DNA of 64,000 nucleotides from Flavobacteriales bacterium (GTDB lineage Bacteria; Bacteroidota; Bacteroidia; CAIKAF01). The translations under genes and the position numbers were made by a program. The notes below the pieces were generated by a model. The model was given only the letters and a program-made list of their open reading frames with translations, ran no database searches and was not told where the DNA came from. The stretch lies in contig JAKRSD010000012.1 in assembly GCA_022402535.1 (NCBI GenBank), forward strand, positions 62,001 through 126,000. Reading direction: 5' to 3'. Positions 13,700 through 31,258 of this stretch are shown here, one piece after another (the stretch's first letter is position 1; each line of letters begins with the position of its first letter).

Positions 13700-15025
13700 A
13701 TGAGTAAACACGAAACCCCATCCCTTTCAAGAACCCTCGGTCCGCTTATGTTGTGGGGATTGGGAGTGGGATACGTCATATCAGGAAATTATTTCGGCTG
13801 GAATTTGGGGCTTGCGGCAGGAGGCTCCTGGGGGATGTTGCTCGCCTTGATTCCGGTAATCATCATGTACGGTTGTTTTACCTTTTGTTATACTGAAATG
13901 GCCTGCGCAATTCCTAAAGCAGGTGGGGCTTTCGACTATGGAACCCGTGCCTATGGAAGCACTTTCGGACTTTTTTGTGGTACCTCCCAGCTGGTGGAGT
14001 TTGTATTTGCTCCCCCTGCCATAGCATTGGGTCTGGGAGCATACATGGCCGGTTTTTTCCCGGGCATTTCGCCCATTTTTACGGCTGTGGCAGCCTATAT
14101 TTTATTCACGCTGGTGAATATTTCAGGAGTGAAAACGGCAGCTTCGGTTGAGTTGTTGGTTACGGCAGTGGCGGTTATCGGACTTTTGATTTTTGCCGGA
14201 AACACACTCCCCCACTTCGATCTAAACAATCTCGAACTTGGTTCCCTCCCTTTCGGATGGACAGGTGTAGCCGCTGCCATTCCTTTTGCCATCTGGTTTT
14301 TTCTGGCTATTGAAGGGGTGGCGAATGTGGCTGAAGAAACCATCAATCCACAGAAAAATATACTTCACGGATTCGGCGCGGCCATCACCACTTTGGTTAT
14401 TCTTTGTGCGCTCACCTTTTTCAGCTCAGTGGGTGCATCGGGCTGGCAAAGTGCAGTTTATCCTGTAGGAAGTATCGAACCCAGTGATTCCCCGCTGCCC
14501 TTGGTTTTTCAAAAGATTGGCATATCCTCCTCTTGGCAAAATGCCATTCTGGTTTTTGGATTGTTTGGCATTGTGGCTTCCCTCAACGGAATAATTCTGG
14601 CAGCGGGCAGAGCGCTTTACGAAATGGCTAAAAGCGGCTTTGCTCCTAAACCACTGGCGGCTATCCATTCACGATTTAACAGTCCGCACGGAGCTTTAGT
14701 GGCAAATCTGATAATAGGCATATTGGCATTGCTCACAGGCCGCACGGGCGATTTGATTACCATTGCCTGTTTTGGGGCTTTGGCGTTGTATTTTTTATCC
14801 ATGTTATCGTATTTAAAACTCAAAAAAAGCGAGCCCGATATGGAAAGGCCCTTCAAAGCGCCTTTGTATCCTATTGCTCCATATGCTGCACTTATAATTT
14901 CATCAGGATGTTTTATTGCCATGGCCTGGTTTACCCCTTGGCATGCATTGATTTTCTTGGCTTTTTTACTCACTTTTACGCTCCTGACTAAACTCATTAA
15001 CAAACACCGGAATGAAAAAATTTGA
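13700..15025 (+). CDS. eat: APC-superfamily permease, ethanolamine permease type
   Basis: 441 residues, about twelve transmembrane helices. The N terminus G-L-G-V-G-Y-V-I-S-G-N-Y-F-G-W-N-L-G-L and the later F-L-A-I-E-G-V-A-N-V-A-E-E-T-I-N-P are characteristic of the ethanolamine permease subfamily of amino acid/polyamine/organocation carriers. It likely imports ethanolamine or a related small amine. The stop overlaps the start of the glutamine-synthetase-like gene by 14 nt, implying translational coupling. No ethanolamine ammonia-lyase or microcompartment genes are in view, so a glutamylation route is more likely than the eut route (inference). Confidence 0.85.
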   Translation: MSKHETPSLSRTLGPLMLWGLGVGYVISGNYFGWNLGLAAGGSWGMLLALIPVIIMYGCFTFCYTEMACAIPKAGGAFDYGTRAYGSTFGLFCGTSQLVEFVFAPPAIALGLGAYMAGFFPGISPIFTAVAAYILFTLVNISGVKTAASVELLVTAVAVIGLLIFAGNTLPHFDLNNLELGSLPFGWTGVAAAIPFAIWFFLAIEGVANVAEETINPQKNILHGFGAAITTLVILCALTFFSSVGASGWQSAVYPVGSIEPSDSPLPLVFQKIGISSSWQNAILVFGLFGIVASLNGIILAAGRALYEMAKSGFAPKPLAAIHSRFNSPHGALVANLIIGILALLTGRTGDLITIACFGALALYFLSMLSYLKLKKSEPDMERPFKAPLYPIAPYAALIISSGCFIAMAWFTPWHALIFLAFLLTFTLLTKLINKHRNEKI

Positions 15026-16376
15026 TATTCAGTCTTTTCTTGATTATGTGGAAGAAAATGGAATTTCCAGAGTAAGGGTATCCGTCTGCGATATTGACGG
15101 CGTTCTAAGAGGGAAATTCATATCTGTCGATAAATTTTTGGGCGCGGCCGAGAAAGGATTTGGTTTCTGCGATGTGGTTTTTGGATGGGACAGTTCCGAC
15201 ATTGCTTATGATAATTCAAAAGTAACGGGCTGGCATACAGGATATCCTGATTCTAAAGCCGTGATTGATTTAAGCACTTACCGGAATATTCCCTGGTTGG
15301 ACGGAACTCCGTTTTTTATTGCAGATTTTGATACGGATGGAAGCACCATGAAATCGGTTTGTCCCCGAACGCTTTTAAAAAATATCGAAATCCGGGCAGA
15401 AAACATGGGATTTATCCCCTATTTCTCACAGGAATTTGAATGGTTTAATTTTAAAGAAAACCCTGATTCTATTGTGGAGAAGGGATATAAAAACCTTACA
15501 CCGTTCACCCCCGGCATGTTTGGTTATTCCATTGTCAGGGCTTCGCAAAATGACGAATTCTTCAGAGCCCTTTTCGACGATTTATCTGATTTTAATATTC
15601 CAGTGGAAGGACTTCATACCGAAACCGGTCCTGGAGTTCTGGAAGCCGCCATCACTTACGACAGAGTGCTTGTATCGGCAGACAGAGCCGCATTATTCAA
15701 AACCTCGGTGAAAGAAATTGCGGCCCAATTCGGCGTGATGCCCACTTTTATGGCCAAAATAAGCGAGAACCTGCCCGGGTGCAGCGGTCACGTACACCAA
15801 AGCCTTTGGGACGAATACAATAAAACCAACTTATTCTGGGATAAAAATGCTTCAGATGGAATCAGTAACCTGATGAAAAATTACATGGCCGGGCAATTGT
15901 ATTGCCTACCCCATATTTTACCTATGTTGGCTCCTACAATTAACAGCTACAAACGCTTGGTGGAAGGCGCCTGGGCCCCCACAACACTCACCTGGGGATT
16001 GGATAACCGCACCACGGCATTGCGGGCTTTACCGGTGGATTCAAAAGCCTGCCGGTTGGAAACCCGTGTTCCCGGCTCGGATGTAAATTCTTATCTGGCC
16101 ATGGCGGCTTGTCTGGCTGCCGGATTGTATGGTATCAAAAACAATCTGCCCCTTCAGCCGGCCACTACCGGAAACGGATATAAAGAACTTGCTTACGGAA
16201 AACTTCCTGCCGATTTATGGGAAGCCACACAAAACATGAAAAACTCCGAAATTGCCCATGAACTCTTCGGTTCAGAGTTCGTCAATCACTTTACGGGAAC
16301 CCGGGAATGGGAATGGAACCAGTACACCAAAGTGGTTACCGACTGGGAATACAAACGTTATTTTGAAATCATATAA
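15012..16376 (+). CDS. Glutamine-synthetase-family ligase (gamma-glutamyl-amine synthetase-like)
   Basis: 454 residues with the GSI-type beta-grasp N-domain (R-V-R-V-S-V-C-D-I-D-G-V-L-R-G-K) and catalytic barrel. Glutamate/ammonium-site and metal motifs are retained: H-T-E-T-G-P-G-V-L-E, S-G-H-V-H-Q-S-L-W, N-R-T-T-A-L-R and E-T-R-V-P-G-S-D-V-N-S-Y-L. The D-I-D-G-V-L-R-G-K form of the N-domain is typical of GS paralogues such as PuuA, GlnA3 and GlnA4 rather than of housekeeping GlnA. Streptomyces GlnA4 glutamylates ethanolamine, and here the gene overlaps an ethanolamine-type permease by 14 nt, so ATP-dependent gamma-glutamylation of an imported amine is the best guess. The substrate is unproved. 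Confidence 0.8.
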   Translation: MKKFDIQSFLDYVEENGISRVRVSVCDIDGVLRGKFISVDKFLGAAEKGFGFCDVVFGWDSSDIAYDNSKVTGWHTGYPDSKAVIDLSTYRNIPWLDGTPFFIADFDTDGSTMKSVCPRTLLKNIEIRAENMGFIPYFSQEFEWFNFKENPDSIVEKGYKNLTPFTPGMFGYSIVRASQNDEFFRALFDDLSDFNIPVEGLHTETGPGVLEAAITYDRVLVSADRAALFKTSVKEIAAQFGVMPTFMAKISENLPGCSGHVHQSLWDEYNKTNLFWDKNASDGISNLMKNYMAGQLYCLPHILPMLAPTINSYKRLVEGAWAPTTLTWGLDNRTTALRALPVDSKACRLETRVPGSDVNSYLAMAACLAAGLYGIKNNLPLQPATTGNGYKELAYGKLPADLWEATQNMKNSEIAHELFGSEFVNHFTGTREWEWNQYTKVVTDWEYKRYFEII

Positions 16377-16385
16377 CGGTTCCGT

Positions 16386-17957
16386 ATGTCAAACTACCTG
16401 CTTACTGTAGATTTAGGCACTTCGGGACCTAAAGTGGGTTTATTTACCGAAAAAGGTAAATACATAGCGCACGAAATAGAACCCAATGAAGTGATTCTGC
16501 TGCCCGACGGAGGAGCCGAGCAAGATCCAGAACACTGGTTTTCTACCATAAAAACAGCACTTCAGAGACTGCTTCAGAAAACGGGAGTGGATAAAGATTC
16601 CATTAAGGCAGTATGTTGCACTTCACAATGGTCGGGTACGGTTCCCGTTAACCGGGACGGAAAACACATTGCCAACGCCATCAACTGGATGGATTCCCGC
16701 GGAGCCGATCATGTAAAAAAAATGATGTATCAGCCCATTCAAACGCAGGGTTATGGATTATTCAAAGCGTTGAAATGGCTTAGAATTACAGGCGGAGCAC
16801 CCGGTTTGGCCGGAAAAGATCCGATTGCCCATATACTTTACATCAAACACGAAAACCCCGAATTATACGCCAAAACCTATAAGTTTTTGGAACCGGTAGA
16901 TTATCTGACCGCCAGACTGACCGGTAAAATTCAGGCCACTTACGATTCCATTTGTGTGCACTGGGTTACGGATAACCGGGATATCAACAACATCACCTAT
17001 CACAATGGCTTGTTGAAAACTGCTGGTATTGACCGCGATAAACTGCCTGATTTAGTGCCTTCAAATTCCATTGCCGGGAAAATCACATCCGAAGCCGCAG
17101 AATATTTGGGTTTAAGTACTGAAACCACAGTAGTTTCAGGTTGTGGCGATATTCATTCGGCAGCCGTTGGTTCCGGAGCCGTGTCTGATTTTCAGCCGCA
17201 TTTTTATATCGGCACCTCGTCTTGGCTGGTTTGTCATCTCCCCTTTCGTAAGATTGACCTGCCGCACAACATGACCACCATACCCTCGGCCATACCGGGT
17301 AAATATCTGCTGGCCAATGAGCAGGAAACCTCCGGGGCCTGCATCCACTTCCTGCGCGATAACATGTTTTTCCATAAAGATGATTTTACGCCCGATGGTC
17401 CCCCCGATGATTTTTACGAAAAACTCAATACACTGGCATCCGAAGTGCCCGCCGGAAGCGAAAATCTGTTATTCATTCCCAAACTTTACGGAGAACGTTC
17501 CCCGGTAGAAGACCATCATACCCGGGCCGCATTTTTCAATCTTTCCTTAACACACGACCGCAGGCATATGATTCGGGCCGTGATGGAAGGTGTGGCGCTG
17601 AATGCCCGCTGGCTCATTAAATATGTAGAGAAGAATGCGGGTAAAAAATTTGACTCTATTAACTTGATCGGTGGCGGCGCCAATAGTGATTTGTGGTGCC
17701 AGATTACCGCCGATGTGTTTAATCTGAACGTGCGGAAAATAAAAAATCCGGTGATGGCAAATTCTCAGGGAGCAGCTTATTTGGCAGCACTGGCTATGGG
17801 AAACATCACCTTGAAAGAAATTGAAGAAATTCACGAAATAGACAAAGAATTTGTGCCTAATCTGAAGAATAAAGCCGTGTATGACAAACTGTTCGATGAA
17901 TTTTTACACTTTTACAAAGCCAATAAAAAAGCATTTATCCGACTCAATAAACACTAA
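16386..17957 (+). CDS. FGGY-family carbohydrate kinase (xylulokinase-like)
   Basis: 523 residues, the usual FGGY length. The N-domain begins L-L-T-V-D-L-G-T-S-G-P-K-V (phosphate 1 loop), contains C-T-S-Q-W-S-G-T and N-W-M-D-S-R-G, and has D-Y-L-T-A-R-L-T-G. The C-domain shows G-C-G-D-I-H-S-A-A-V-G as the catalytic-base region and I-G-G-G-A-N-S-D-L-W-C-Q as the adenosine motif. These enzymes phosphorylate sugars or polyols. It begins 9 nt after the ligase gene, so it is almost certainly in the same transcript; why a sugar kinase travels with an amine permease and ligase is unclear. The substrate is unknown. Confidence 0.87.
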   Translation: MSNYLLTVDLGTSGPKVGLFTEKGKYIAHEIEPNEVILLPDGGAEQDPEHWFSTIKTALQRLLQKTGVDKDSIKAVCCTSQWSGTVPVNRDGKHIANAINWMDSRGADHVKKMMYQPIQTQGYGLFKALKWLRITGGAPGLAGKDPIAHILYIKHENPELYAKTYKFLEPVDYLTARLTGKIQATYDSICVHWVTDNRDINNITYHNGLLKTAGIDRDKLPDLVPSNSIAGKITSEAAEYLGLSTETTVVSGCGDIHSAAVGSGAVSDFQPHFYIGTSSWLVCHLPFRKIDLPHNMTTIPSAIPGKYLLANEQETSGACIHFLRDNMFFHKDDFTPDGPPDDFYEKLNTLASEVPAGSENLLFIPKLYGERSPVEDHHTRAAFFNLSLTHDRRHMIRAVMEGVALNARWLIKYVEKNAGKKFDSINLIGGGANSDLWCQITADVFNLNVRKIKNPVMANSQGAAYLAALAMGNITLKEIEEIHEIDKEFVPNLKNKAVYDKLFDEFLHFYKANKKAFIRLNKH

Positions 17958-17966
17958 ATACAGATT

Positions 17967-18620
17967 ATGAGTTCTCCCGTTTTTAAAATTGCCGTAGTGG
18001 ACGACCATCCCCTTTTCCGTAAAGGAACCATGGGTTTAGTCGATTCTTTTGCCCCTGAATGTAAAGTCATCATGGAAGCCGGAAACGGCAGGGAATTATT
18101 GGATCAGATTGAAAACGGCCTTGTGCCCGATTTAATCATCAGCGACCTTACCATGCCTGTGATGGACGGTTTTGAACTGGCTGCCGAAATCAAAAAAAAA
18201 CATCCGCAAATAAAAATTCTGGTTCTATCCATGATTAACCGCGAAGAAACGGTGATTAAAATGCTCCGCTATGGCGTAAAAGGCTATTTATCGAAAGACA
18301 TTCAGGCGGATGAACTGCGGGTGGCCATACGGGCCATCATGGATCAGGGGTTTTACTATACAGATTATCTGACCGGCAGATTACTGAACGAAATTAAAAA
18401 CGCTGACAATAACCCGGCTGTTGAAATCAGCGAACGCGAACATCAATTCCTTAAGCTGGTATGTTCCGATGATTCCTACCAACAGATAGCGGACAAAATG
18501 TTTTTGAGTATAAAAACGGTGGACGGTTACCGGGCTTCTTTATTTGAAAAACTGAAAGTTAAATCCCGCACGGGACTTGCTCTTTATGCCGTAAAAACAG
18601 GCATTGTAAGTTTAGATTAA
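17967..18620 (+). CDS. NarL/FixJ-type response regulator
   Basis: 217 residues. The receiver domain is complete: Asp12-Asp13 acidic pair, phospho-acceptor Asp60 in I-I-S-D-L-T-M-P, Ser88 and Lys110 in G-Y-L-S-K-D. A LuxR-type HTH (E-I-S-E-R-E-H-Q-F-L-K-L-V, then S-I-K-T-V-D-G-Y-R) ends the protein. It lies 9 nt after the kinase gene. No histidine kinase is present in the window, so the sensor is encoded elsewhere. Its position suggests it controls the permease-ligase-kinase unit, but in Bacteroidota such regulators often act on unlinked targets. The stop overlaps the convergent methyltransferase by 4 nt. Confidence 0.92.
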   Translation: MSSPVFKIAVVDDHPLFRKGTMGLVDSFAPECKVIMEAGNGRELLDQIENGLVPDLIISDLTMPVMDGFELAAEIKKKHPQIKILVLSMINREETVIKMLRYGVKGYLSKDIQADELRVAIRAIMDQGFYYTDYLTGRLLNEIKNADNNPAVEISEREHQFLKLVCSDDSYQQIADKMFLSIKTVDGYRASLFEKLKVKSRTGLALYAVKTGIVSLD

Positions 18621-19873
18621 GCCTCCCTGCGTAAACGGGCCATATAAAATCCATCGAATCCGGTTTGGGATGGATAATGATATGCCTGTTCCAGTAACTC
18701 GTATTGCGGATGATTGGCTAAAAAAGCCTGCACCTGATTTTCGTTTTCCGAAGCAAATAGACTGCATGTGGCATACACCATAATGCCGCCAGGTTTAAGC
18801 ATTTTGCTGTAGTTTTCCAGAATTTCCTGCTGGGTTTTAACCACCCGGATAAAAAATGTGCGGTCTATTTTATACTTGGCATCCGGATTTCGGCGAAGTA
18901 CGCCGCTGCCCGTACACGGAACATCCAACAAAAGCCGGTCGGCTGAGTTTTCCATTCTTTTGATAGTTTTCATTCCTTCTATCAGCCGGGTTTCTATAAT
19001 GGAAACCCCGTTTCGTACCGCTCTATTTTTCAGTTCATTGAGTTTGTAATGCTCCACATCCATGGCAATTATTTTGCCCTTATTCTGCATAAGTGATGCC
19101 AGATGAAGCGTTTTACCACCCGCCCCGGCACAGGCATCAATTACGCGCATACCTGATTCTGCCTGCAGAAATGGCGCAATGGTTTGGGAACCGGCATCCT
19201 GCACTTCAAAATAGCCGGCTGAAAATAACGGATGACGGAATAGATTTACCTTTCCGTTCAGGCGCAATGCATCCGGATATCCGGGAATTTCTTCCACATC
19301 CAATCCTTCTCCGGCCAAAACATCCATCACATGATTAACCGTCGTTTTCAGTGTGTTAACTCTCAAAATCACAGGCGCTTTTTCGTTCATGGCCAGTAAT
19401 TCTCTTTCCCATAATTCTTCGCCGATTTCTTCCAGGGCCAGTTCATCCAGCTCTTGCGATACAGATTGTAAAATCGTTCTGGGCAGTTTGCTTCTTTTGG
19501 CTCTTTCTTCCGCCGCTTTCCGATTGAATTTGGAAAACTCATTCCATTCGGGAAGAATGTATCCTTTCAGAAAAAGAAGATTTCCGGCCAAAGCCCATAG
19601 GCCTTCCCGTTTAAATGAAAAGGAATCGCCCGTAAACCAAACCAGATAATTCCAATGGCGTACGGCATCATACACCATTTCGGCTATAAAAGCCCTGTCG
19701 TCGGCACCGGCTTTTTTATTGGCTTTGAAATAGCGTTCCAGGGCTTTATCTGCGTATTCTTTTTTGCCCATCACCTCATCCAGAATCCGGACAACTGCTT
19801 CCACACGGGCGGGATATATTTTTTGCTTGATTCCGGCCTGTAAGGTAATTGCCGGATGCGTATTTTCATTCAT
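18617..19873 (-). CDS. RsmB/NOP-family RNA (cytosine-5) methyltransferase
   Basis: 418 residues. An N-terminal helical region is followed by the NOP2/Sun fold: A-C-A-G-A-G-G-K-T-L-H (SAM motif I), A-M-D-V-E (motif II), L-L-L-D-V-P-C-T-G-S-G-V-L-R-R-N-P-D with the motif IV Pro-Cys, and Y-A-T-C-S-L-F-A-S-E-N-E with the catalytic motif VI Thr-Cys. It methylates C5 of a cytosine in RNA, probably 16S rRNA as RsmB does; the target position cannot be read. Its ATG at 19873 shares one base with the stop of the upstream response regulator. Confidence 0.9.
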   Translation of the reverse strand: MNENTHPAITLQAGIKQKIYPARVEAVVRILDEVMGKKEYADKALERYFKANKKAGADDRAFIAEMVYDAVRHWNYLVWFTGDSFSFKREGLWALAGNLLFLKGYILPEWNEFSKFNRKAAEERAKRSKLPRTILQSVSQELDELALEEIGEELWERELLAMNEKAPVILRVNTLKTTVNHVMDVLAGEGLDVEEIPGYPDALRLNGKVNLFRHPLFSAGYFEVQDAGSQTIAPFLQAESGMRVIDACAGAGGKTLHLASLMQNKGKIIAMDVEHYKLNELKNRAVRNGVSIIETRLIEGMKTIKRMENSADRLLLDVPCTGSGVLRRNPDAKYKIDRTFFIRVVKTQQEILENYSKMLKPGGIMVYATCSLFASENENQVQAFLANHPQYELLEQAYHYPSQTGFDGFYMARLRREA

Positions 19874-20583
19874 TATTGAAGAGACTCCTGTTTCATAAAT
19901 CCTTTACTCATGGCGTAGTTGAGCAGTTCTGTGGCATTTTTACAGGATAACTTTTTAAGTATATTTTTTCGATGGGTATAGATGGTATGAATGCTCAGAA
20001 AAAGTTCATCGGCCATTTCCTGGGCGGTTTTACCTTTCACTACCAGTTTCAGAATTTCTTTTTCTCTTTCGGAAAGGTTTCCAAAATGATCTTTAACCTC
20101 CTGCGCCGTGGGCATTCCTCGTTGAGGCATTCCCTGCCCTCCTTCTCGGTTACCGTATGTCATGGCAATCAGCGCTTCCACAATTTTCGGACTGAAAAAC
20201 TTGGTTCCGTCGGCCGTTTTTCTGATGGCATCGGTGATTTCCTGCTTTTCACTTTCAATGGTTATAAAACCCGTGATATTGAGTTTGTGGATGCGGTAAA
20301 TGGTTTCTTTATCGCTATCGGAAATTACCAGCACTTTGCATTTTGAGAATAATTCCGAGGTACGTTCCATATTTTCTTCCAGAAAATAATCGCCGAAGTT
20401 TTTATCCACAATGAGTACATCAAAATGTTTCATGGACGATAATGCAGCCAGTTCATCTATGCTGTGAATTGTACCTGCAGGCTCAAAGTCAGGATTCTCA
20501 CGTATTAGATTCAGTAATCCCTGCTTTACGAGATACTGCGTTTCCGAGAGCATGATTCGAATATTTTTCTTGGGTAGAACCAT
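19873..20583 (-). CDS. LuxR-type regulator with degenerate receiver domain
   Basis: 236 residues. The N-terminal domain has the receiver fold length and the acceptor-like Asp60 in V-L-I-V-D-K-N-F, but the acidic pair is replaced by Ser13-Glu14 (I-M-L-S-E-T-Q) and the conserved Lys is missing (G-F-I-T-I-E near 105-110). Phosphorylation-dependent switching is therefore doubtful. The C-terminal HTH is intact (N-L-S-E-R-E-K-E-I-L-K-L-V and S-I-H-T-I-Y-T-H-R-K-N-I-L). A TACTTTTG box at 20592-20599 gives it its own promoter 8 nt before the ATG. It shares one base with the RNA methyltransferase gene, suggesting coupled translation. Confidence 0.88.
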   Translation of the reverse strand: MVLPKKNIRIMLSETQYLVKQGLLNLIRENPDFEPAGTIHSIDELAALSSMKHFDVLIVDKNFGDYFLEENMERTSELFSKCKVLVISDSDKETIYRIHKLNITGFITIESEKQEITDAIRKTADGTKFFSPKIVEALIAMTYGNREGGQGMPQRGMPTAQEVKDHFGNLSEREKEILKLVVKGKTAQEMADELFLSIHTIYTHRKNILKKLSCKNATELLNYAMSKGFMKQESLQ

Positions 20584-27534: not shown

Positions 27535-29406
27535 TTATAATTTTATAAATCGTGAACTGCCGAAATACACCCCTATCTCATTTTTCAGGTTGAGTGCATA
27601 CACACCAGGAGGAAGCGCCATCACCGGGATTATTTTTCCTGATTCAGAAATACCCGATAAAAGAACCCTGCCCTGCATGTCGGATATTTCATAAATAAAG
27701 TCCGTTTCTGCTGTTTCAATAATAATATGATGAGTAGCAGGGTTAGGATAGATCACAAACTCTTGCACCATAGACTCTGAAACAGACACAGGAAGAGTGA
27801 TATTTACCAATACTTCGTCTGTAACCACACAACCCTGATTATCGGCAATACAGGTAACATTGTACAATCCGGGAGCGGCCCAACTGGCTGTAATCTGAGA
27901 AGTTCCCTGTCCGCTGAGTATAGTTCCGTCCTGGACAGTCCACAAATACGTTATTCCCGGCTGATCAGTTACAGAAAACGGTTGGGATGTTCCAATTAAC
28001 AAAGAACCCTGCGGGGCATTAATTTGTATAGGCTGAGGAAAAGCGTTTAACACGGTTTGCAGTGTATCCGTTTGGGCACCACAGCCCGGATTGCCTACAA
28101 AAGCAGAAAACTCTCCTGATTGATTAACCGTAATATTGGGTGTAGTGGCTCCGTTACTCCACAACACCGGAAAACCCGAAGGAGAAGCCGTGAGTACGAC
28201 CTGTCCGCCTGTGCAAAAACTTAATGCGCCCGAGGCAGAAACGGAAGCACTTTGCACGGAAGGAATTTCTGAAATACTGAACGATGGGGAATTAATGGAA
28301 CAGATTCCATTACTAACCTGAACCGTGAGCGTCTGCGGCTGTGATACTTCGATTTGTCCGGTGGTTTCTCCGGTGCTCCACAAATATGAAAATCCGGTAG
28401 GATTGGCTTCTAATTGAGCCATATCGCCCTGGCAATAAGAAGCGGGACCATTGATAGTGGCTGCTACAGGAATATTCTGCGTGCAAACCTGTTGTTTGGT
28501 AAGCCAATTAGCCGAATTGGTAAGGGTTTCAAATTGGGTCCATGCGGCACATTCTCCTTTCAAAAAATAGGTCAAGTATGGAATTATGATGGAACGCACT
28601 TTATTGAGTTGATCGGCACGGGTTAATCCTCCTGAAGGGGAGCAGGTTCCCTCACCGAAGGTACAGTTGAAATTATCACTATTGAAATGGCAATGATAAC
28701 CGCCCGTGATACTTATATACGTCTTACACGCTGAACCGATTGCGTTATATATAGGCACCTGATTGCTTGCCGGAGGAGCCACACAGTCAATACTACCCGC
28801 AATAACCAGATTGGGAGCGGTCATACTCGCCGCAGCGGTAATGGCGGATGGATTTGTTTCTGCTGCCGCAAAAGTGAAATAACAGTTTACGCCACTTGTG
28901 TTCTGATTGGCCAGATAAGTGGCCCCGCCGCCCATAGAATGCCCTCCTATGGCTCTTCGTCCGTTCAATTTTTGATAAAAAATTGAAGTCGGAGTCGTAT
29001 TCAGGGCAACCATTTTTTCGGAAACGAGTGCAAGATCTTTCCCGAAATCTCCGTGAGACGGAGCAGGCAACAAACTCCCTTCCGTTCGGGGAAGTGCAAC
29101 GATAAAGCCACGCCCTGCCAAAGAATCATATATGGGTTCATACGCATCCCAAGCCATGGCAAAACCATGACCAAAAACCACTACAGGCAAATTGTTACCC
29201 GCTACAGGCTGATTGGTTCCTGCATTGGTGGCCGGATAATAAATTTTGGTTTCAATCTGGCGGCCCGGCCCTCCCCCGCTTCCAAAACCACCCGTTCGTG
29301 TTGGGTCATTAAAGGTAATGGTCGTTTCACTTACCGGATAAAAGGTTTGAGCATACAAACAACTTACTGATAACAAGAAAGAAACACAAATAAGAACGAG
29401 TCTCAT
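27535..29406 (-). CDS. Secreted alpha/beta hydrolase (polyesterase/chlorophyllase-like) with T9SS signal
   Basis: 623 residues. Signal peptide about 1-20. The hydrolase domain (about 25-300) has the nucleophile in G-G-H-S-M-G-G-G (Ser157), the acid in S-I-D-C-V-A-P-P (Asp207) and the base in G-G-Y-H-C-H (His238). The order and wording S-M-G-G-G ... D-x-x-A-P ... P-I-Y ... G-G-x-H resemble cutinase-like polyesterases (PET hydrolase family) and chlorophyllase-like esterases, as known from memory. Three Ig/PKD-like segments (about 310-540) follow, two beginning P-x-S/A-Y-C-Q-G or L-S-F-C-T-G-G, and a T9SS sorting domain (Y-P-N-P-A-T-H-H). The natural ester substrate is unknown. Confidence 0.85.
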   Translation of the reverse strand: MRLVLICVSFLLSVSCLYAQTFYPVSETTITFNDPTRTGGFGSGGGPGRQIETKIYYPATNAGTNQPVAGNNLPVVVFGHGFAMAWDAYEPIYDSLAGRGFIVALPRTEGSLLPAPSHGDFGKDLALVSEKMVALNTTPTSIFYQKLNGRRAIGGHSMGGGATYLANQNTSGVNCYFTFAAAETNPSAITAAASMTAPNLVIAGSIDCVAPPASNQVPIYNAIGSACKTYISITGGYHCHFNSDNFNCTFGEGTCSPSGGLTRADQLNKVRSIIIPYLTYFLKGECAAWTQFETLTNSANWLTKQQVCTQNIPVAATINGPASYCQGDMAQLEANPTGFSYLWSTGETTGQIEVSQPQTLTVQVSNGICSINSPSFSISEIPSVQSASVSASGALSFCTGGQVVLTASPSGFPVLWSNGATTPNITVNQSGEFSAFVGNPGCGAQTDTLQTVLNAFPQPIQINAPQGSLLIGTSQPFSVTDQPGITYLWTVQDGTILSGQGTSQITASWAAPGLYNVTCIADNQGCVVTDEVLVNITLPVSVSESMVQEFVIYPNPATHHIIIETAETDFIYEISDMQGRVLLSGISESGKIIPVMALPPGVYALNLKNEIGVYFGSSRFIKL

Positions 29407-30316: not shown

Positions 30317-31258
30317 ATGCACACGAAGCGAGATTCCTTTTATGTGATTTTCAATCCCCGTTCAGGAGGCGTAAAAAGTCCTTCTGACAGAGAAGGGGTT
30401 TTTGACGTTTTTCGCAAACAGCAGGTTGATTTCACCTTCGAAGAACAGGATGATACGGACGCCTTCGGAAAAACCCGCAGAGCCATAGAAAAAGGGTTCC
30501 GCAAATTTATTGTGATGGGCGGCGACGGCACTCTAAACCAAACCGTGAATGCATTATTTCAACAATCTGAAGTGCACACGGAAGAATTTACAATCTGCAT
30601 GATTCCCTTTGGTTCGGGTAATGACTGGATTCGCACGCTCGGCATTCCCAGAAAACCCACCGAAGCGGCAGACATTATATCTACCGGTAAAATATTTACA
30701 CAGGATATCGGCAAAGTGGAATACAGCGGAAAACAAGGCCGCGAATCAGTGTATTTTGCAAATATTGCCGGGTTTGCTTACGATGCTTTCGTGAACCGAA
30801 AAACCCTTGAAGACCCTTTAAAAAAATGGCTGGGCGGTCTCTCCTATCAGCTTACCATGTTCAAATGTCTTTTGTCTTTCCAACATGTACAGGCCAAAAT
30901 CACGGTAGATGACACGGTGATTGAAACACCTTTATTTTCGGGCTGTGTAGCCAAATGCAAATACAACGGAAACGGGATGATGCAGGCCCCGCATGCCATT
31001 CCTGACGACGGATTATTAGCGGTTACGCTGATTAAAGACATTTCAAAACCAGGAATTGTGCTCGAAACCAAAAATCTGGGTAAAGGCACGTTCACCAAAA
31101 ACAAACATATCCAGATATTGAAAGGGAAACGGGTATCCGTGGAAACCACGCCCGAAATTGAATTGGAATGCGAAGGCGAACAATACGGAAAAAGCCCGTT
31201 TGTGTTTGAAGTGCTTCCCAAAGCACTCAAGGTTATTGTGCCGAGTGGGATTGGTTAA
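30317..31258 (+). CDS. Diacylglycerol/lipid kinase (DagK-YegS family)
   Basis: 313 residues. The DAGK catalytic domain shows V-I-F-N-P-R-S-G-G at the start, the nucleotide-binding I-V-M-G-G-D-G-T-L-N-Q near residue 70, and P-F-G-S-G-N-D-W-I-R-T-L-G, all standard for this family. The C-terminal domain contains E-L-E-C-E-G-E near the end, matching the family's D-G-E region. It phosphorylates a membrane lipid such as diacylglycerol or a sphingoid-type lipid; specificity is not readable. It has no membrane segment and probably acts at the inner face of the membrane. No operon partner is visible. Confidence 0.9.
   Translation: MHTKRDSFYVIFNPRSGGVKSPSDREGVFDVFRKQQVDFTFEEQDDTDAFGKTRRAIEKGFRKFIVMGGDGTLNQTVNALFQQSEVHTEEFTICMIPFGSGNDWIRTLGIPRKPTEAADIISTGKIFTQDIGKVEYSGKQGRESVYFANIAGFAYDAFVNRKTLEDPLKKWLGGLSYQLTMFKCLLSFQHVQAKITVDDTVIETPLFSGCVAKCKYNGNGMMQAPHAIPDDGLLAVTLIKDISKPGIVLETKNLGKGTFTKNKHIQILKGKRVSVETTPEIELECEGEQYGKSPFVFEVLPKALKVIVPSGIG

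Follow-up and report, generated by a model that had tools for sequence, protein, structure and literature searches.

What does a kinase of the FGGY family do in an apparent operon for the utilization of ethanolamine? This question is raised by a four-gene unit in the genome of a Flavobacteriales bacterium (assembly GCA_022402535.1, contig JAKRSD010000012.1). The DNA analysed here, designated the window, is a stretch of 64,000 nucleotides corresponding to positions 62001-126000 of contig 4 of this source genome, which is labelled G000, its contigs being labelled C plus number. The kinase belongs to a clade whose genes are linked to those of sphingosine-1-phosphate lyase (SPL) homologues and co-occur with ceramidase and ethanolamine ligase genes, and we incline slightly towards a joint reading in which the kinase would phosphorylate sphingoid bases, SPL would yield phosphoethanolamine, and the ethanolamine module would consume the ethanolamine. 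The unit comprises the following genes:

13700-15025, + strand, permease: APC-family ethanolamine permease (TIGR00908)
15012-16376, + strand, glutamine synthetase (GS)-like ligase: Gln-synt_C domain, probable gamma-glutamylethanolamide synthetase
16386-17957, + strand, FGGY-family kinase of clade A: FGGY_N and FGGY_C domains, proposed sphingoid-base kinase
17967-18620, + strand, NarL-type response regulator without adjoining sensor kinase: Response_reg and GerE domains

The layout given in an earlier sequence-only reading of this DNA, with a 14-nt overlap of the permease and ligase genes and 9-nt gaps between ligase and FGGY gene and between FGGY gene and regulator gene, was borne out, as all four open reading frames were confirmed. 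Since each of them gave strong family matches in Pfam and NCBIfam and the spacing is as tight as in an operon, the set is not a chance arrangement. Scans of the unit for promoters and terminators gave matches no more numerous than in shuffled sequence and therefore neither back nor break it; the four genes are presumably co-transcribed.

The permease passes the TIGR00908 equivalog model for ethanolamine permeases (399.9 bits, cut-off 381.75 bits). The ligase scores below the cut-offs for GlnA (type I GS), type III GS, and gamma-glutamylputrescine synthetase of the PuuA type (226, 201, and 179 versus 429, 470, and 650 bits, respectively) and is predicted to be none of these three enzymes. In a search of the PDB, its second-best match was 5dm3, which we take to be a Chromohalobacter protein of an ethanolamine route. 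The TIGR00908 score and the family placement of the ligase uphold the earlier assignment of an ethanolamine-type permease and a GlnA4-like gamma-glutamyl ligase. For 80 loci with ligase orthologues (60-68% identity) from named Bacteroidota genomes, the neighbouring genes were clustered; as several contigs end nearby, the resulting counts are minima. A permease homologue is located 5' of the ligase gene at 58 of these loci, an iron-dependent alcohol dehydrogenase (ADH) is encoded at 54, and the cluster of aldehyde dehydrogenase (ALDH) and class-I amidotransferase is found at 47, the usual gene order being permease, ligase, ADH, amidotransferase, and ALDH. Judged by this conserved neighbourhood, permease and GS-like ligase are predicted to form a widespread ethanolamine module of Bacteroidota and to represent one half of the known gamma-glutamylethanolamide pathway, which was described in Streptomyces (GlnA4 cluster; PMC6529630) and for the ETAGA operon of Phaeobacter and Chromohalobacter (PMC10132767). 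These systems have in common a GS-like ligase, a dehydrogenase, an ALDH, a class-I amidotransferase, and an ethanolamine transporter, but the Bacteroidota possess an APC permease and an iron-dependent ADH, and in G000 the genes occupy two contigs, the permease-ligase half being followed by the FGGY and response regulator genes.

According to the sequence-only reading, the standard downstream enzymes are missing, which is correct only as far as the operon is concerned. Elsewhere in the genome, the genes for ADH, amidotransferase, and ALDH are contiguous on contig 10 (C10:5025-8281) in the usual order, show 68, 38, and 60% identity, respectively, to those of relatives, and had their families confirmed. 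With this trio, the predicted pathway is complete in G000 in spite of its division between two contigs, and a loss of the ethanolamine enzymes from the genome is ruled out. At some loci (L047, L058, L061, L062, and L084), several of which are from Saprospiraceae, a single protein of about 693 amino acids seems to combine the amidotransferase and ALDH of the ethanolamine operon as a fusion. FGGY genes were absent from all 80 ligase loci, as were close homologues of the window response regulator. A conserved permease-ligase-FGGY triplet, for which the sequence-only reading had proposed a neighbourhood search, is thus ruled out for these orthologous loci, and the linkage outside this genome on which that reading had staked its proposal was not found there.

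The kinase itself lies below every FGGY equivalog cut-off in NCBIfam, with 265.9 bits for xylulokinase (TIGR01312, cut-off 380.25 bits) and 147.5 bits for glycerol kinase GlpK (cut-off 590 bits); a xylulokinase-like protein obtained in the same search from genome G322 passes the xylulokinase cut-off with 400 bits, and a separate GlpK is encoded in G000 (C7). Fold and catalytic aspartate (Asp255, invariant in the aligned kinases) are those of xylulokinases and glycerol kinases, but besides the scores two sequence features set the window kinase apart. The position of the QMHG motif of XylB and the QRE motif of GlpK, residues which presumably contact the substrate, is occupied by QWSG in clade A and by QYFTS or QYFSS in clade B, the Arg-Glu glycerol contacts of GlpK being replaced by Trp-Ser in the window kinase. 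Furthermore, both clades and a Burkholderia relative share an inserted segment, at about residues 115-140, that the xylulokinase-like G322 protein lacks and that is shorter in GlpK. The scores and the replaced contact motif rule out an ordinary xylulokinase or glycerol kinase. The closest relatives, which constitute clade A, are found in genomes G028 (65% identity), G056 (55%), and G002 (47%), and the more distant clade B (30-33%) includes a second G000 copy on contig 17. In a tree with several long branches, clades A and B group together (92/85) and are joined by the Burkholderia protein (100/99) and then by a Butyrivibrio protein (100/98), apart from the glycerol kinases and the xylulokinase-like sequence. 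An AlphaFold model gave a confident FGGY fold (mean pLDDT 88.8) with xylulose and glycerol kinases as structural matches; the protein contains FGGY_N and FGGY_C only and has no DAGK_cat or SphK1-like fold.

An indication of function comes from the gene neighbourhood and the co-occurrence of this clade in a sample of 395 Bacteroidia genomes, which was identical for every family. FGGY kinases of clades A or B are present in 19 of them (18 detected plus a truncated copy in G247), G322 having been set aside from this count on account of its score above the xylulokinase cut-off and its deoC neighbour. All 19 also contain SPL of type A or B, and such an SPL without detected FGGY kinase occurs in only two genomes (G107 and G006), both of which are fragmented. 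Of the 18 FGGY A/B genomes detected, all encode a ceramidase and 17 the ethanolamine ligase, which is present in 52 of 395 overall; the exception, G271, is 70% complete. The association of FGGY A/B with SPL A/B over the 395 genomes has a Fisher p value of 2e-30, but this and the other genome-level p values (1e-15 to 2e-30) are too small, since related genomes were treated as independent. At the genus level, all seven genera carrying the FGGY kinase, which belong to six families, have SPL (p 1e-7), ceramidase (p 2e-5), and ligase (p 3e-7). The linkage is also physical: SPL directly adjoins 16 of 20 FGGY A/B genes, a pyridoxal phosphate (PLP) enzyme is encoded beside the FGGY gene in G002 and at every clade-B locus examined, and in G081 and G232 the operon order is neutral ceramidase (PF04734), PHP/HisJ-type phosphatase, FGGY-A, and SPL-A.

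The partner PLP enzyme is assigned as sphingosine-1-phosphate lyase because it is closest to solved SPLs, scores far above the decarboxylases, and retains the PLP-lysine motif. The G002 protein scores 556 bits against the SPL of Symbiobacterium (3mad) and 442 bits against human SPL, compared with about 91 bits for the best decarboxylase, and the SPL encoded on contig 17 of G000 matches that of Burkholderia (5k1r) with 478 bits, compared with 65 bits. The motif HKYGY is kept in the partner SPLs, with one conservative change in G081. In G000, the ceramidase gene is located on C23, SPL-B and FGGY-B on C17, and a second SPL-like gene on C16 (L192:3346-4857). The latter belongs to a third type (C; also L205-L224), which is often encoded in Bacteroidia genomes that contain a ceramidase, has no adjoining kinase, and may cleave capnine, with a sulfonate in place of the phosphate, to form taurine. 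No replacement kinase was found beside type-C SPL genes in genomes lacking FGGY, and SPL homologues on named plasmids had no FGGY neighbour in the one region examined. DAGK counts across the genomes gave no clean swap pattern with FGGY apart from G002, which contains the FGGY-SPL pair and a ceramidase and no match to a DAGK_cat kinase. Two further observations concern the FGGY-SPL loci. In two families, the FGGY-B/SPL-B pair faces a convergently oriented amidase gene (PF01425, PRK07869 type; L134:7870-9288, L133, L195, L196, L198, L200, and L201), whose product possibly hydrolyses amides of N-acyl sphingoid lipids. In the single-contig assembly of G071 (L186 and L187), the FGGY and SPL frames are interrupted by stops and frame changes, probably sequencing errors.

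The substrate of the kinase is, by its linkage to SPL and ceramidase, suggested to be a sphingoid base. In the proposed route, ceramidase would free the sphingoid base from ceramide, the FGGY kinase would phosphorylate its terminal C1 hydroxyl group, and SPL, whose activity is known for homologues, would split the phosphorylated base into phosphoethanolamine and a fatty aldehyde. For this step, we assume that the window kinase works with the contig-17 SPL, a lyase with an FGGY paralogue of its own. A phosphatase, for which the PHP-type protein of the G081 and G232 operons is a candidate, would then yield ethanolamine, which, like that imported by the permease, would be joined to glutamate by the ligase, and the iron-dependent ADH, ALDH, and amidotransferase of contig 10 would oxidise the product and release glycine, thereby regenerating glutamate. 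The kinase gene in the window would thus be placed inside the ethanolamine operon, with both ends of the route predicted to be encoded in G000. That the enzymes of the FGGY-fold clade are sphingoid-base kinases, and that they make up, jointly with the ceramidase, SPL, and gamma-glutamylethanolamide enzymes, a full bacterial pathway by which ceramide is converted to glycine, glutamate, and a fatty aldehyde, is a tentative proposal, to which we give slightly less than an even chance. The glutamylated, phosphorylated intermediate suggested by the sequence-only reading found no support. Its other suggestion of two pathways sharing one regulator came nearer in that two pathways are indeed indicated, but they look metabolically connected, because FGGY genes of this clade are associated with those for SPL and ceramidase, and phosphoethanolamine, the SPL product, feeds ethanolamine metabolism.

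The proposed route resembles the sphingoid-base kinase and sphingosine-1-phosphate lyase pathway of eukaryotes and of bacteria with SPLs (Symbiobacterium, Legionella, and Burkholderia) in that homologous ceramidase and SPL genes are linked to a kinase gene. It differs in the FGGY fold of the kinase, eukaryotic SphK and PG1348 of Porphyromonas being SphK1-like, and in the location of SPL outside the window operon. PG1348, a dihydrosphingosine kinase, was the only characterised bacterial enzyme of this kind found in the literature searched (PMC9045371). No relevant paper on FGGY kinases in connection with sphingolipids or sphingosine-1-phosphate lyase was found in this literature, most subscription journals lying outside its coverage, and within that coverage the association of FGGY, SPL, and ceramidase therefore appears to be undescribed.

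Several points weigh against a sphingoid-base kinase in this operon. FGGY enzymes are known to act on small polyols, and the function proposed here is drawn from gene linkage. G000 contains FGGY-A without an SPL-A partner, the SPL-B of contig 17 being paired with FGGY-B, and two DAGK-type kinases are also encoded in this genome. A candidate lipid kinase of the YegS/DAGK type (PF00781 and PF19279) lies in the window itself (30317-31258, + strand), 12 kb 3' of the unit. Moreover, the G000 acyltransferase that would be expected to form sphingoid bases (C18, L239:3674-4942) is nearest to cysteate-C-fatty acyltransferase (581 bits, compared with 227 bits for serine palmitoyltransferase), and homologues of this type with 64-78% identity are present in the FGGY-carrying relatives examined. 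These organisms probably make sulfonolipids rather than sphingolipids, which renders endogenous sphingoid bases unlikely, and the proposed substrate would therefore be taken up from outside. Finally, the outgroup FGGY genes on plasmids of Burkholderia ambifaria and Butyrivibrio lie beside genes for a class II aldolase and a class III aminotransferase and not beside SPL.

The plasmid relatives (40% identity in Burkholderia, 32% in Butyrivibrio), whose neighbourhood is the layout of a ketose-1-phosphate cleavage pathway, and the fold matches to xylulose and glycerol kinases agree with an alternative in which the clade would phosphorylate a small molecule, either a polyol or one akin to a ketose. 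The ketose could be derived from an aminosugar or resemble deaminated phytosphingosine, and the SPL-like partner would use a phosphoamino alcohol that is not sphingoid. We regard this alternative as unlikely, as the ceramidase is found in the FGGY operons of G081 and G232 and in all FGGY-A/B genomes, and the partner enzyme matches solved SPLs, including those of human and yeast, far above any decarboxylase. The apparent plasmid operons (L225:11980-18724 in Burkholderia ambifaria, which also contains a short-chain dehydrogenase/reductase and an ALDH gene, and L226:5998-10595 in Butyrivibrio fibrisolvens) raise the separate question of a possibly undescribed amino-polyol or phytosphingosine-like route.

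A stronger competitor is that two pathways without metabolic link share one transcript. Among the loci searched, the FGGY gene adjoins the permease-ligase pair only in G000, which also speaks against the joint reading, and 22 genomes contain the ligase but no SPL. This has to be set against the presence of the ligase in nearly all FGGY genomes and in all seven FGGY genera, a frequency far above that in the whole sample, and against the nature of the SPL product; we consider independence of the two halves a real but lesser possibility, which, being compatible with a sphingoid-base kinase, overlaps with the reading preferred here. Its position in one unit with an ethanolamine permease could also mean that the kinase acts on ethanolamine or another amino alcohol and converts imported ethanolamine to phosphoethanolamine for lipid head groups, but neither permease nor ligase adjoins the majority of FGGY-A/B genes, whose neighbour is SPL, an enzyme that itself would yield phosphoethanolamine, so that this function is very improbable.

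The response regulator, which in one suggestion of the sequence-only reading was shared by two pathways, does not belong to a conserved unit. Its nearest relatives (52-54% identity), which come from two genera of the same family, are preceded by a small gene of histidine-kinase-like type and not by FGGY. A regulator encoded beside SPL-B in family f10 was rejected as its orthologue (about 28% identity); it is nearer to a LuxR-type regulator encoded elsewhere in the window (19873-20583, - strand; about 31%), whose receiver-like part is not recognised by the Pfam receiver models. The window also encodes a large secreted, PETase-like alpha/beta hydrolase (PF12740) with PKD and Por secretion-tail domains (27535-29406, - strand).

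While the ethanolamine half represents a known pathway, an FGGY sphingoid-base kinase would be new. Bacteria with sphingosine-1-phosphate lyase need a source of phosphorylated sphingoid bases. If the proposal is correct, a lipid substrate would enter a kinase family known for sugars and glycerol, a set of Bacteroidota genes that now carry the annotation xylulokinase or FGGY kinase would gain a function, and the breakdown of sphingolipids would be tied to nitrogen recycling via ethanolamine.

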